A stretch of 64,000 bases of DNA from an uncultured Paracoccaceae bacterium. GTDB lineage: Bacteria > Pseudomonadota > Alphaproteobacteria > Rhodobacterales > Rhodobacteraceae. The notes beneath the pieces are model-generated. The model did not search any database. It saw nothing but the letters and a program-made list of their open reading frames with translations, and was not told where the DNA came from. Below are positions 4,690 to 36,987 of the stretch, piece after piece (the stretch's first letter is position 1; every line of letters starts with the position of its first letter). The stretch lies in assembly GCA_947488605.1 (NCBI GenBank), contig CANKZJ010000001.1, positions 1 to 64,000 on the forward strand, in the 5' to 3' direction. Made by a program: the position numbers and the translations under genes.

Positions 4690-5136
4690 ATGCCACATTC
4701 ACTACTTGTCCTCAACGGTCCTAATCTCAACCTGCTGGGCACCCGGCAGCCAGAGGTTTATGGACCGACAACACTGAAGGACATTGAGACGCTTTGCCAA
4801 GAAAAGGCAGCGTCGCTTGGCATCGACGTCACCTTTCTGCAAAGTAACCATGAAGGTGAACTTGTTGATTTATTGCATAATGCACGCGGCGTTCACGCGG
4901 GTATTATTCTGAATGCGGGTGCTTACACCCATACCTCTGTTGCGTTGATGGATGCTATTTCCAGCATCATGGTCCCCGTGGTTGAGTTACATTTATCAAA
5001 TATTCACGCCCGTGAAGAGTTTCGTCAGAAATCCTTTATTGCCCCGGTAGCTGTCGGGCAGATCTGCGGGTTCGGGGCGGCTGGCTATCCACTCGCGATG
5101 GACGCGATACTGTCTTATATCGGAGAAGCGACATGA
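4690..5136 (+). CDS. aroQ: 3-dehydroquinate dehydratase, type II
   Basis: Product of 148 residues, the standard size of the dodecameric type II enzyme. It converts 3-dehydroquinate to 3-dehydroshikimate in the shikimate pathway. Visible motifs are LNGPNLNLLGTRQPEVYG at the N-terminus, which carries the flexible-loop Arg and the catalytic Tyr, and VELHLSNIHAREEFR, which carries the catalytic His and substrate-binding residues. It overlaps the LuxR-type gene downstream by 4 bases (ATGA), so the pair is translationally coupled. That pairing is unexpected for a biosynthetic enzyme. Confidence 0.95.
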   Translation: MPHSLLVLNGPNLNLLGTRQPEVYGPTTLKDIETLCQEKAASLGIDVTFLQSNHEGELVDLLHNARGVHAGIILNAGAYTHTSVALMDAISSIMVPVVELHLSNIHAREEFRQKSFIAPVAVGQICGFGAAGYPLAMDAILSYIGEAT

Positions 5137-5897
5137 CATCATTAGTGGCGCAACTGGATAAGTTGACGAATGCGCGCAGCGTCGAAGAACTATGGGACGT
5201 GCACACACGGCAGATGGCCACATATGGCTTTGACCGTGTGATGTACGGGTTCACCCGTTACAGAACGTCCAGCGGTCTGGGCGATCCTCAAGATTGGGTT
5301 CTCTTATCGACGCAAAGCCCTGAATACATGAAGGTTTTCTTTGATGAAGGCCTGTACTATCACGCCCCGATGTTGCGTTGGGCGTTGGCCAATAACGGTG
5401 CTTGCAGCTGGCGTTGGATGATGGATATGAACCGCGTTGATAATCTGACACCCAGCGAATTGCGGGTGATGGAATTCAACAAATCTATGGATGTGACTGC
5501 CGGTTACACGATCAGCTTCCGATCAATCTCGGAGCGCACGAAGGGCGCGATTGCCCTGACAGCAAAACCGGGCATGAACCAGGACGCGGTCGAACAGGTT
5601 TGGGCCAAACATGGTGAGGCAATCATTGTCATGAACAATGTGATGCACCTTAAGCTGTTGACCCTGCCCTATTCGGGTGAACGTCACCTGACAAAGCGTC
5701 AGCGCGAAGTGCTGCAATGGGTTGGTGACGGCAAAACAACGCAGGATATTGCACTTTTGTTGGAACTGACCCCAGCAACGGTTGAAAAACATCTGCGCCT
5801 TGCCCGCGAGGCGTTGGACGTTGAAACGACGGCGCAGGCAGTGTTGAAAGCCGCCTTCTATAATCAGATGTTCGTGATGGATCCCGAAGCCCTTTAG
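5133..5897 (+). CDS. LuxR-family regulator with autoinducer-binding-like domain
   Basis: Product of 254 residues. The N-terminal 170 residues match the autoinducer-binding domain layout and the C-terminal part (about 186-241, LTKRQREVLQWVGDGKTT onward, then TVEKHLRLAREAL) is a GerE/LuxR helix-turn-helix. In AHL receptors such as TraR and LuxR a conserved Asp-Pro contacts the lactone amide. Here the corresponding stretch reads YYHAPM (75-80), while the tryptophans after it (SWRW, 92-95) are kept. No luxI-type synthase is present in the window. It may be a LuxR solo that senses a different ligand or none. The start overlaps the aroQ stop (ATGA), indicating coupling. The DNA target is unknown. 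Confidence 0.88.
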   Translation: MTSLVAQLDKLTNARSVEELWDVHTRQMATYGFDRVMYGFTRYRTSSGLGDPQDWVLLSTQSPEYMKVFFDEGLYYHAPMLRWALANNGACSWRWMMDMNRVDNLTPSELRVMEFNKSMDVTAGYTISFRSISERTKGAIALTAKPGMNQDAVEQVWAKHGEAIIVMNNVMHLKLLTLPYSGERHLTKRQREVLQWVGDGKTTQDIALLLELTPATVEKHLRLAREALDVETTAQAVLKAAFYNQMFVMDPEAL

Positions 5898-5959
5898 AGT
5901 AACTTTATTACTTATGACCCAACGGCAAAAATAATAAATTTGTCCAAATGGTCAGGTTT

Positions 5960-5982
5960 ACCCTACTTTCTTTACGTAGGGT
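5960..5982. promoter_or_regulatory. Inverted repeat between the luxR-type gene and the structured RNA
   Basis: A 7-base perfect inverted repeat, ACCCTAC (5960-5966) and GTAGGGT (5976-5982), is separated by 9 bases in AT-rich DNA. It lacks a following T-run, so it is not a good intrinsic terminator for the upstream gene. It lies just before a weak sigma-70-like stretch (TTTACG, 18 bases, TGTAAA) that would start a transcript near 6003. It could be an operator for the RNA below. Evidence is symmetry and position only. Confidence 0.35.
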
Positions 5983-6002
5983 TAAATGACATTGTGTAAA
6001 TG

Positions 6003-6220
6003 TTCCGTGAGTGGTGGCCTAAGGCCTGGGAACGTGGGGTCTCAATCCTTGTGATTTCAAGGCACTGTGACCTTATTCCGGGCAACCGGACGTTGGCACA
6101 GGCAGGTTTGCCTGTCCTGTGTCAGCACAAGCGATACGTGTTAGCTCCTCGTCCCGAAAACGGACTGACACGCTAATCGTTGCGGCACCGGCTCTCTTCC
6201 AAGTTCGGTGCCGCACTTTT
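6003..6220 (+). ncRNA. Structured non-coding RNA or long leader
   Basis: This stretch has no open frame and is packed with stem-loops: GTTCC/GGAAC at 6002-6033; CCTTG/CAAGG at 6047-6062; TCCGG-GCAA-CCGGA at 6077-6090 with a GNRA loop; a long hairpin at 6095-6123 (GGCACAGG/CCTGTGTC outside, CAGG/CCTG inside); another at 6128-6181 (CGTGTTAG/CTGACACG with G-U pairing); and a 9-base perfect terminator stem GCGGCACCG/CGGTGCCGC at 6082+100 to 6214 followed by CACTTTT. Such density is far above chance. It could be a stand-alone RNA (a 6S-type RNA is one possibility given size and overall fold) or a leader controlling the MFS gene downstream. I cannot match it to any riboswitch consensus I know. Confidence 0.6.
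6182..6220 (+). terminator. Intrinsic terminator of the structured RNA
   Basis: A perfect 9-base stem, GCGGCACCG (6182-6190) and CGGTGCCGC (6206-6214), has a 15-base loop and is followed by ACTTTTCT. The U-tract is short but the stem is very strong. This would end a transcript starting near 6003 at about 6220. Confidence 0.6.
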
Positions 6221-6233
6221 CTCCCCTGAAAAG

Positions 6234-6264
6234 AAACGGCCCACCATAATGGTGGGTCGTTTGC
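6234..6264 (+). terminator. Second strong hairpin, probable terminator
   Basis: A 13-base stem, AAACGGCCCACCA (6234-6246) and TGGTGGGTCGTTT (6250-6262), has one G-U pair and a TAA loop. The downstream arm ends in TTT. It follows the first terminator by 14 bases and may be a back-up or bidirectional terminator between the RNA and the MFS gene. It could also act as an attenuator for the MFS gene, whose start is 46 bases on. Confidence 0.6.
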
Positions 6265-6309: not shown

Positions 6310-7635
6310 GTGCATGTCAACACCAACGGCGATGCTGCAAATATGGCCACCGAAATCGCGTTCTCTTTCGCAGCACTGAACCCGTTAGCGCGACGGCACA
6401 TTCGCCTATTTCAAATACACCAGTTCCTAGACCGTTTTGCGATGGGCCTGACGGTGCCCGTTGTTGCCTTGGCATTAACTGACCGAGGCATGGACCTGTT
6501 TCAAATCTCGCTTCTCTTCGGGGTCTACGCACTTACGACAATGGCGATGGAGCTGCCGTTTGGAGGTCTCGCCGACAGCATTGGCCGCAAGCCGGTCTTT
6601 TTGGCGGCCGTCGTCGCCAGCTTGATTTCGCTCGTGCTCTTTCTCTCGACGCGTGATTTCTATGTTCTCGCGCTTTCATTTGCATTCATCGGATTTGGCC
6701 GTGCGCTCAGGTCGGGCACGCTTGATGCGTGGTTTGTAGAGACTTTCAGGGCCGCAGCGCCCAATGTGGATGTCCAACCCGCACTGGCCAAAGCGCAATG
6801 GGCCAATGCCGTAGGGTTGGCTATTGGCGCCGTGTTGGGGGGCATTCTGCCCGATATTCTGGGCGGGGTCGCTGTGGGCCTTGGGTTCAGCATCTATGAT
6901 GTGTCCTATGTCGCAAGCTTTGCAGTGATGTTGGGCGTGTTTGTTTTTACGATGTTGGCCATCGTCGAAAAACCCCGTGCCAAAGACGCTACTGCTCTCA
7001 TCCGCGGCTTCACCAATGTCCCAACGGTGATCAAAGACGCGAGCCTTTCGGCACTCAAACACCCCACTTTGTCGCTACTTCTGGCCGCGTTGGCGTTCTT
7101 CTTGATGGCGACTAACCCGGTCGAGGTGATCTGGCCGACACATGCAAAGCCGATGCTGGACGCGGGTTACGCAAACACAGTCATCGGTGTCGTGACCGCG
7201 ACCTATTTCTTCTCCATCGCTTTGGGCGCATCTTTGTCTGCGCACATCAGCCGGATATTTGAACGGCAGCACGTCAAGACGCTGGCGGCATGTTTTGCTT
7301 GCTTGGCAGGTGTTCAGATCGCGTTGGCGCTGCAGGGCAGTATTGTGGGTTTTGTGGCGGTGTTCGTCCTCTATTCTGTGATCCTTGGTGTGACTGAAAC
7401 GCCGGCCAGCAGCATTCTGCATCGCTGTGTAGACGACCGTCAGCGGTCGACCATGCTCTCTCTGAGATCGCTAATACAACAGTTGGGGGCCGCATTGGGC
7501 CTGGTTTTAGCCGGAGCTGTTGCTGAAATTTATTCTACACCTATCGCATGGATTGTCGGTGCGGTATTTTTATTCATTGCGGTGATACTGACCTTGGTGT
7601 TGGTCCGACGGCTGGCCGTAGAAGACGATAGCTGA
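6310..7635 (+). CDS. Major facilitator superfamily transporter
   Basis: Product of 441 residues from the GTG at 6310, which has AAGG just upstream; an ATG at 6343 would give 430 residues and is an alternative. The chain is hydrophobic throughout with about 12 membrane segments. It carries the cytoplasmic-loop signature between TM2 and TM3, GLADSIGRKPVFLAA, typical of MFS drug/metabolite exporters. A central charged loop occurs around the residues VEKPRAKDATALIRG. The substrate cannot be told. The strongly structured RNA and two hairpins lie directly upstream, so expression may be controlled in the leader. Confidence 0.85.
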   Translation: MHVNTNGDAANMATEIAFSFAALNPLARRHIRLFQIHQFLDRFAMGLTVPVVALALTDRGMDLFQISLLFGVYALTTMAMELPFGGLADSIGRKPVFLAAVVASLISLVLFLSTRDFYVLALSFAFIGFGRALRSGTLDAWFVETFRAAAPNVDVQPALAKAQWANAVGLAIGAVLGGILPDILGGVAVGLGFSIYDVSYVASFAVMLGVFVFTMLAIVEKPRAKDATALIRGFTNVPTVIKDASLSALKHPTLSLLLAALAFFLMATNPVEVIWPTHAKPMLDAGYANTVIGVVTATYFFSIALGASLSAHISRIFERQHVKTLAACFACLAGVQIALALQGSIVGFVAVFVLYSVILGVTETPASSILHRCVDDRQRSTMLSLRSLIQQLGAALGLVLAGAVAEIYSTPIAWIVGAVFLFIAVILTLVLVRRLAVEDDS

Positions 7636-36901: not shown

Positions 36902-36987
36902 TGGTGCCGATGGAGAGACTCGAACTCTCACGATATTACTATCGGGGGATTTTGAATCCCCTGCGTCTACCATTCCGCCACATCGGC
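36902..36987 (-). tRNA. tRNA-Leu (anticodon CAA)
   Basis: Reading the minus strand, GCCGATG and its partner CATCGGC form the acceptor stem (7 pairs), the anticodon arm is GGGGA-TTCAAAA-TCCCC with anticodon CAA, and the T-arm has GTTCGAGTC. A variable arm follows the anticodon arm, as expected for leucine, and CCA is encoded at 36902-36904. The total of 86 bases is normal for a class II tRNA. It reads the codon UUG. Confidence 0.93.

Follow-up and report, generated by a model that had tools for sequence, protein, structure and literature searches.

As a general idea, a regulatory RNA driven by a regulator is already known. RNAIII of Staphylococcus, which is quorum-controlled through a two-component system, is a multi-hairpin regulatory RNA with UCCC-type loops suited to Shine-Dalgarno pairing, and Pseudomonas has small RNAs (sRNAs) that are activated by LuxR-family proteins. 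The Rhodobacteraceae contain CcsR1 (RF02791), an sRNA with C-rich loops. Among the LuxR solos, group 1 of the Rhodobacterales occurs in the gene order aroQ-luxR-tsf and carries the substitutions W57Y, Y61F, D70I/G/A and E178Q (PMC4338825, Table 4 row). Its role has so far been guessed from the aroQ neighbour, Subramoni et al. 2015 having suggested aromatic amino acid biosynthesis and otherwise left the function open (PMC4338825). The words 'sRNA', 'non-coding' and 'intergenic' are absent from the main text of that paper, whose consulted parts mention no RNA. The classical lux box is described there as CT-N12-AG (PMC4338825).

The locus studied here lies in a window of 64,000 nucleotides, i.e. 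the whole stretch of DNA that was analysed, and comprises the following features.

4690 to 5136, + strand: aroQ, encoding a type II 3-dehydroquinase (Pfam DHquinase_II, E 2e-60), whose end overlaps the start of luxR.
5133 to 5897, + strand: LuxR solo, proposed to activate the RNA, with the domains PF03472 (Autoind_bind) and PF00196 (GerE HTH).
5950 to 5967, + strand: lux-box-like palindrome GGTCAGGTTTACCCTACT, the proposed LuxR operator, centred at about -43.5.
5990 to 5995, + strand: -10 element CATTGT (consensus CAnnnT), from aligned promoters.
6002 to 6220, + strand: RNA of about 219 nt with six hairpins and an inferred start at G6002, recognised by the z score of its fold, by matches of the covariance model R1, by covariation and by the minimum-energy fold.
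About 6235 to 6262: separate hairpin, which reads as an intrinsic terminator on the - strand (terminator scan).
6310 to 7635, + strand: MFS gene, placed between the RNA and tsf in the window.

The residues Y65, F69, A78 and Q190 of the window LuxR correspond to the pattern W57Y, Y61F, D70A and E178Q, in a TraR numbering placed by the presumed spacing from W85. The same pattern is largely kept in the 119 orthologs retained from 134 upstream frames, with Y in 113, F in 112, A or G at D70 in 116 and Q in all 119; aroQ lies upstream of luxR in many relatives. Because of the residue pattern together with the aroQ-luxR-tsf order, the window LuxR fits group 1 of Subramoni et al. It differs from the published group in the listed P71V, since the residue is P in 119/119 orthologs, and P71V perhaps applies to only some group 1 members. 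The HTH is nearly invariant in the 119 orthologs, which we take as favouring operator specificity. A further difference concerns the output: the conserved element linked to the gene is here an RNA, whereas the published suggestion is aromatic amino acid biosynthesis.

The explanation that we favour, with a confidence somewhat above even, is that the LuxR solo activates the RNA, which would in turn regulate mRNAs via C-rich loops. The LuxR solo, with its non-standard ligand pocket, would bind GTnnGG-N4-CCnnAC at about -43, where the site overlaps the -35 region, and would thus be placed as class II activators are; class II LuxR activators have the spacing found at this palindrome. It would activate transcription from the CAnnnT -10 box, yielding an RNA of about 219 nt that begins with GUUCC, has its 3' end at a hairpin of its own and acts in trans. 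The first two hairpins, P1 and P2, would form the conserved core; P5 would present its C-rich loop, as P6 would in many copies, for pairing with the ribosome-binding sites of target mRNAs. The locus would therefore look like a dedicated regulator-to-RNA switch. With RNAIII it would share the drive by a regulator (here proposed), the several hairpins and the UCCC-type loops, but the present RNA is shorter, is associated with a LuxR solo and not with a two-component system, and shows no conserved coding sequence; no sequence relation is claimed. As in Pseudomonas, a LuxR-type protein is proposed as the direct activator of an sRNA promoter; the difference is that one solo and one RNA adjoin here across a large part of a family.

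We examined the fold of the RNA. The + strand of 6003-6264 folds with -124.6 kcal/mol, whereas 200 shuffles that preserve dinucleotides give -87.3 (sd 5.1), none of them being as good (z -7.26); the - strand is weaker (z -4.83). The strongly structured RNA with at least six good hairpins that had been proposed in an earlier note on this DNA is then present beyond chance, and its approximately 219 nt fold into the six hairpins listed below.

6002 to 6033, + strand: P1, with a GUUCC/GGAAC outer stem (5 bp), a conserved GUGAGUGGU internal loop and a GGCC/GGCC inner stem, from the fold.
6034 to 6076, + strand: P2, a longer hairpin with a UGAUUU-type loop, in which 8 of 8 outer-helix pairs show changes on both sides.
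6077 to 6090, + strand: P3, a mini hairpin CCGG-GNRA-CCGG, which reads CCGG-GCAA-CCGG at 6078-6089 in the window.
6092 to 6126, + strand: P4, a long hairpin with the loop GGUUUGCC, with both-side-changed pairs in a 25-sequence alignment.
6130 to 6181, + strand: P5, a hairpin with a C-rich loop, CUCGUCCCGAAA in the window and CAUCCCCA in many other genera.
6182 to 6214, + strand: P6, a G+C-rich 3' hairpin GCGGCACCG/CGGTGCCGC with a CUUCC loop, a probable terminator, which is followed by ACTTTTC.

The GNRA tetraloop stem already noticed corresponds to P3. A strict GNRA tetraloop was obtained at this place in 48/144 single folds versus 0 in shuffles (one shuffle per copy); across copies the loop is GNRA or UUAU-like, and the hairpin is missing from 4 of the 25 A1 copies (L012, L019, L022 and L023). 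The loop of P4 varies as well, being UUUG, or of UAUU type in other genera, and that of P6 is often CUCCC or CUUCC. The stem of the 9-base perfect terminator that had been described exists as P6 (6182-6214), but only four Ts lie 3' of it and the scan of the + strand for terminators gave no flag. The second 13-base hairpin is real too, as a separate element beyond the RNA (about 6235-6262) that is terminator-like on the - strand; it probably formed the 3' end of the rpsB-tsf operon until the MFS gene was inserted. The ends had been placed at 6003 and 6220: conservation and the -10 box move the 5' end to G6002, and the structured part does end near 6220. The same region had been said to hold no open frame. 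An ORF of 58 aa does exist at 6000-6176, with a start that is not conserved: where the window has the codon ATG ahead of GTTCC, relatives have AAG, ACG, CGG or other codons. A conserved small ORF was rejected because that codon is no start in several relatives. A long-range pairing between P1 (UGGGA) and the P5 loop (UCCC), suggested by RNAalifold, was also rejected: P1 makes its own stem, and its strand varies (e.g. CAAGGAAC) while the P5 loop recurs, which counts against the pairing.

Homologues of the RNA were found by several routes. A BLAST of 60 genomes matched 30/35 same-genus relatives and 0/24 genomes from other families, and one of the five same-genus non-matches (G030) contains a diverged copy (L236). 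In A2, an alignment of 30 copies over the first 76 nt of the RNA, 96.5% of the cells are paired versus 29-59% with the partners slid, and both-side changes occur in 81 cells versus 23 in shuffles. R1 is a covariance model of these first 76 nt, i.e. of P1 + P2 and not of the full length. When 100 loci were fitted to R1, an alignment that for this reason leans towards the model, both-side changes were seen at 17/22 pairs, P1 pairs included, in 323 cells versus 83 in shuffles, with 95.2% of the cells paired versus 34-53% when slid; P1 shows both wobble and both-side changes across the 100 loci. The compensatory base changes by which the earlier note had suggested checking the RNA are thus found, and both P1 and P2 covary.

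With stricter filters, R1 matches 219/394 Rhodobacteraceae genomes (about one per genus) and 3/289 genomes sampled class-wide, all three of which are within the Rhodobacteraceae. The value of 219/394 is a lower bound, because R1 with default filters scores 12 of the 17 loci with the strongest LuxR (L206-L222) at E <0.05 on the LuxR strand, these loci coming from the 79 genomes that are LuxR-positive and RNA-negative under the stricter filters. A P5-type CATCCC loop is readable in several of the 17, and two of them (L206 and L214) contain badly degraded RNA copies. An exact 18-mer of P1 was found in 113 stretches of GTDB contigs; the 80 matches listed belong to Rhodobacteraceae, Paracoccaceae, Rhodobacterales and Alphaproteobacteria, with genera including Rhodovulum, Octadecabacter, Roseovarius, Marivivens and Pelagimonas. 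Two 18-mer matches (L076 and L156), with neither hairpin nor LuxR, were regarded as chance and excluded from later counts. The RNA family is widespread in the Rhodobacteraceae (more than half of the sampled genera) and missing from Rfam 15, and the bacterial group with LuxR and RNA is common in the sea. That the RNA exists and is conserved is nearly certain.

The C-rich loops were then compared between copies. The apical region of P5 contains UCCC or CCCC in 110/144 single folds versus 12/144 shuffled (one shuffle each), and a late C-rich loop is present in 58/144 versus 4 in shuffles. The P5 stem sequences differ widely while the C-rich loop recurs, the loop being CGUCCCGA in Yoonia versus CAUCCCCA in other genera. 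The strict motif C[AG]UCCC was found in 96/144 copies, and in 90 of these 96 it can lie at the apex of a stem of >=6 pairs, within the loop; its stem is only modestly better than with shuffled flanks, a median of 15% of shuffles reaching it and <=5% doing so in 25 copies. Five Yoonia-type copies (L020 and L027-L030) look shortened after P2, and four of them (not L028) retain a hairpin whose loop is UCC(C), which suggests a core of P1, P2 and the C-rich hairpin; the shortened copies may define the minimal functional core. No robust signal was obtained for the pairing of P5 with the start regions of luxR, aroQ and tsf, the only three tried. For luxR, 0/50 swaps were as strong at first, and the candidate pairing was rejected when the signal was gone with GC-matched swaps (p 0.19); for the aroQ start region, GC-matched swaps gave p 0.048 in the opposite direction. 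Pairing of the C-rich loops with mRNAs, the most speculative and least certain step of the mechanism, is to us an even bet. CcsR1 resembles the RNA in its C-rich single-stranded stretches and differs from it in layout, the present RNA reaching 12.6 bits against a cut-off of 65.3.

The RNA, still under LuxR control, could instead bind a protein via the conserved P1, as a sponge or scaffold, and not pair with mRNAs. We consider this unlikely, while giving it real weight: conservation within the RNA is highest in P1, its unpaired GUGAGUGGU included, the other loops vary, and the Rhodovulum-type copies (L062, L070, L081, L108 and L153) have no UCCC in P5 and carry late loops of GGGG type instead. 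The first 19 nt of P1 are invariant in all 30 A2 copies, which were picked by similarity. However, the loci were chosen by an exact 18-mer or 13-mer, so that the invariance of P1 partly reflects selection, and diverged copies do change P1; in addition, 110/144 copies retain the C-rich loop on stems that differ greatly.

Regulation by the LuxR solo was considered from the arrangement of the gene, the palindrome and the RNA. In 160 oriented loci, some genomes being present twice, tblastn with the window LuxR, MFS and AroQ placed LuxR upstream of the RNA and on its strand in 148. The 12 others comprise five loci cut near the locus end (L070, L080, L099, L109 and L129), the chance hits L076 and L156, four loci with AroQ directly upstream of the RNA and no LuxR there (L047, L064, L079 and L102), and L092. 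In L013, about 1.1 kb separates the RNA from the LuxR upstream of it. LuxR is directly upstream of the RNA in 109/111 compared genomes (exceptions G347 and G115), the 111 being those of 127 R1-positive rows with LuxR among the matches listed, and the luxR-RNA gap in the 109 ranges from 68 to 814 nt with a median of 121. A LuxR match at E 1e-30 was obtained in 216/219 RNA-positive versus 79/175 RNA-negative genomes, a comparison in which the matches can be paralogues and, the genomes being related, the Fisher value is no true probability. Some loci show irregularities. In L018 (also L117) the match to the upstream LuxR is split between two frames, through a frameshift or an error of assembly, and RNA and palindrome remain. 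In L092, RNA and palindrome are intact and LuxR was not found within 5.8 kb upstream, possibly owing to a rearrangement or assembly joint.

The palindrome, approximately GTnnGG-N4-CCnnAC with one or two positions relaxed, is present in 136/140 distinct loci having the exact 5' motif; from the start of its second half to the RNA the distance is 42-44 nt. It also occurs in 139 of the 144 diverse copies, at exactly 43 nt in 120 of these; the five without it are three with degenerate versions (L029, L211 and L213) and two without LuxR (L047 and L064). As a promoter palindrome of about 20 bp it resembles the lux box, from which it differs in being GT(N12)AC and not CT(N12)AG, according to base frequencies in 140 loci. 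On the side towards the start, the strongest positions in the alignment of 120 promoters are C-12 (82%), A-11 (99%) and T-7 (93%), and this -10 box places the start at G6002. The promoter scan gave no sigma-70 consensus, as would be expected for an activator-dependent promoter. The fixed palindrome and the -10 box give the RNA, at the sequence level, the promoter of its own and the independent, conserved 5' end that characterise a trans-acting sRNA. The conserved RNA, its linkage to LuxR and this promoter architecture are computational observations; from them we infer that LuxR binds the palindrome and activates the RNA.

Alternatively, the RNA might be an independent RNA of housekeeping type, next to LuxR by shared synteny only, with a palindrome that serves another regulator. 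This is improbable in our judgement. In its favour, the aroQ-luxR-tsf order is itself conserved, and RNA and LuxR each occur without the other. The RNA is intact in the LuxR-less loci L047, L064, L079 and L102, three distinct sequences (L047 = L079). Conversely, the LuxR frame of L221 (G406), of about 250 codons, is intact, and neither palindrome nor RNA is present there before tsf. A degraded LuxR was rejected for L221, the stop that had been counted being the natural end of the intact frame. L221 is a true loss of the RNA, so LuxR can persist without it. Against synteny alone stand two observations: the palindrome keeps a fixed distance to the RNA while luxR lies anywhere between 68 and 814 nt away, and the four loci without LuxR beside aroQ have no palindrome either. 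These four are from Cognatishimia-like genomes and share a different upstream stretch, which may bind another regulator. Control of the RNA by LuxR is, on these sequence comparisons, likely, and we hold it with good confidence, lowered because the LuxR frame of L221 is intact.

We also searched for the palindrome elsewhere. In 36 same-genus genomes, exact matches, with symmetric sites counted twice, numbered 0-7 per genome versus 0-4 for a reversed control pattern, and 30 loci were opened. One recurrent site (L247 and L253) falls within the opening codons of an SDR gene, where coding explains it. Among the 30 opened loci, and for exact matches, the RNA promoter is the sole recurrent, non-coding site. 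A second recurrent palindrome was seen in L244 and L245, at about 1501-1518, in signal-peptide codons of a small protein and about 120 nt upstream of an SCP2-type gene that is on the opposite strand. It may be a second LuxR target, or coding may explain it; since it recurs, the RNA may not be the only target of LuxR.

A broader reading is that, across much of the family, the main conserved target of the LuxR solo is one structured RNA that carries the signal onward. We advance it tentatively and lean somewhat against it, because L221 keeps LuxR without the RNA and because the second recurrent palindrome exists. If true, the circuit would be the Rhodobacteraceae functional counterpart of the agr-RNAIII arrangement, and group 1 solos would be activators of an RNA that respond to a non-AHL ligand. 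For these solos, the RNA with its matching operator provides a testable output.

The suggestion of the earlier note that the RNA could be a leader of the MFS transporter, i.e. a cis-acting leader or riboswitch, agrees with the position and strand of the MFS gene in this window only, where it intervenes between RNA and tsf, but it is already refuted as a general function and very improbable otherwise: the MFS gene matched only two of the 160 loci, both from this genome, 119/144 diverse loci have tsf downstream, on the opposite strand, and Rfam gave no riboswitch match. The MFS gene seems to have been inserted recently into the conserved luxR-RNA-tsf neighbourhood.

That the RNA is 6S, the other identity put forward and one that it resembles in size and overall fold, or another Rfam family missed by the thresholds, has a negligible probability, since the 6S model (RF00013) gives nothing between 5890 and 6340 up to E 5, a 6S candidate lies elsewhere, ar15 (16.6 against 40 bits) and CcsR1 are far below their cut-offs and ten diverse homologous loci gave no gathering-level match in Rfam 15. 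Up to E 5, only five weak matches were obtained at the RNA, all far under the cut-off, and the sole gathering-level match of Rfam 15 in the window is a tRNA gene (36905-36987, - strand). The 6S candidate is a sub-threshold match in the same genome (C2:217324-217482, L175; 37.8 bits, cut-off 46.4), likely a 6S gene missed by the Rfam cut-off. The earlier note had matched the RNA to no riboswitch consensus and considered a new class or a stand-alone RNA; with no Rfam match, the homologues, the compensatory changes and the conserved promoter support a stand-alone RNA of a new class.

The RNA is not described in the titles and opening lines of abstracts among the open-access PMC matches listed, nor in the consulted parts of PMC4338825, PMC5107571, PMC3824088 and PMC4809877, and a search of PMC6473078 for text terms gave no match. 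Both the RNA family and its association with a LuxR solo, which extends over much of a bacterial family, appear to be new. A homologue may be listed unnamed in the supplementary sRNA tables of Ruegeria or Paracoccus. In Ruegeria, an element called 'riboswitch82', of 188 nt, is listed against the LuxR gene SPO1974.
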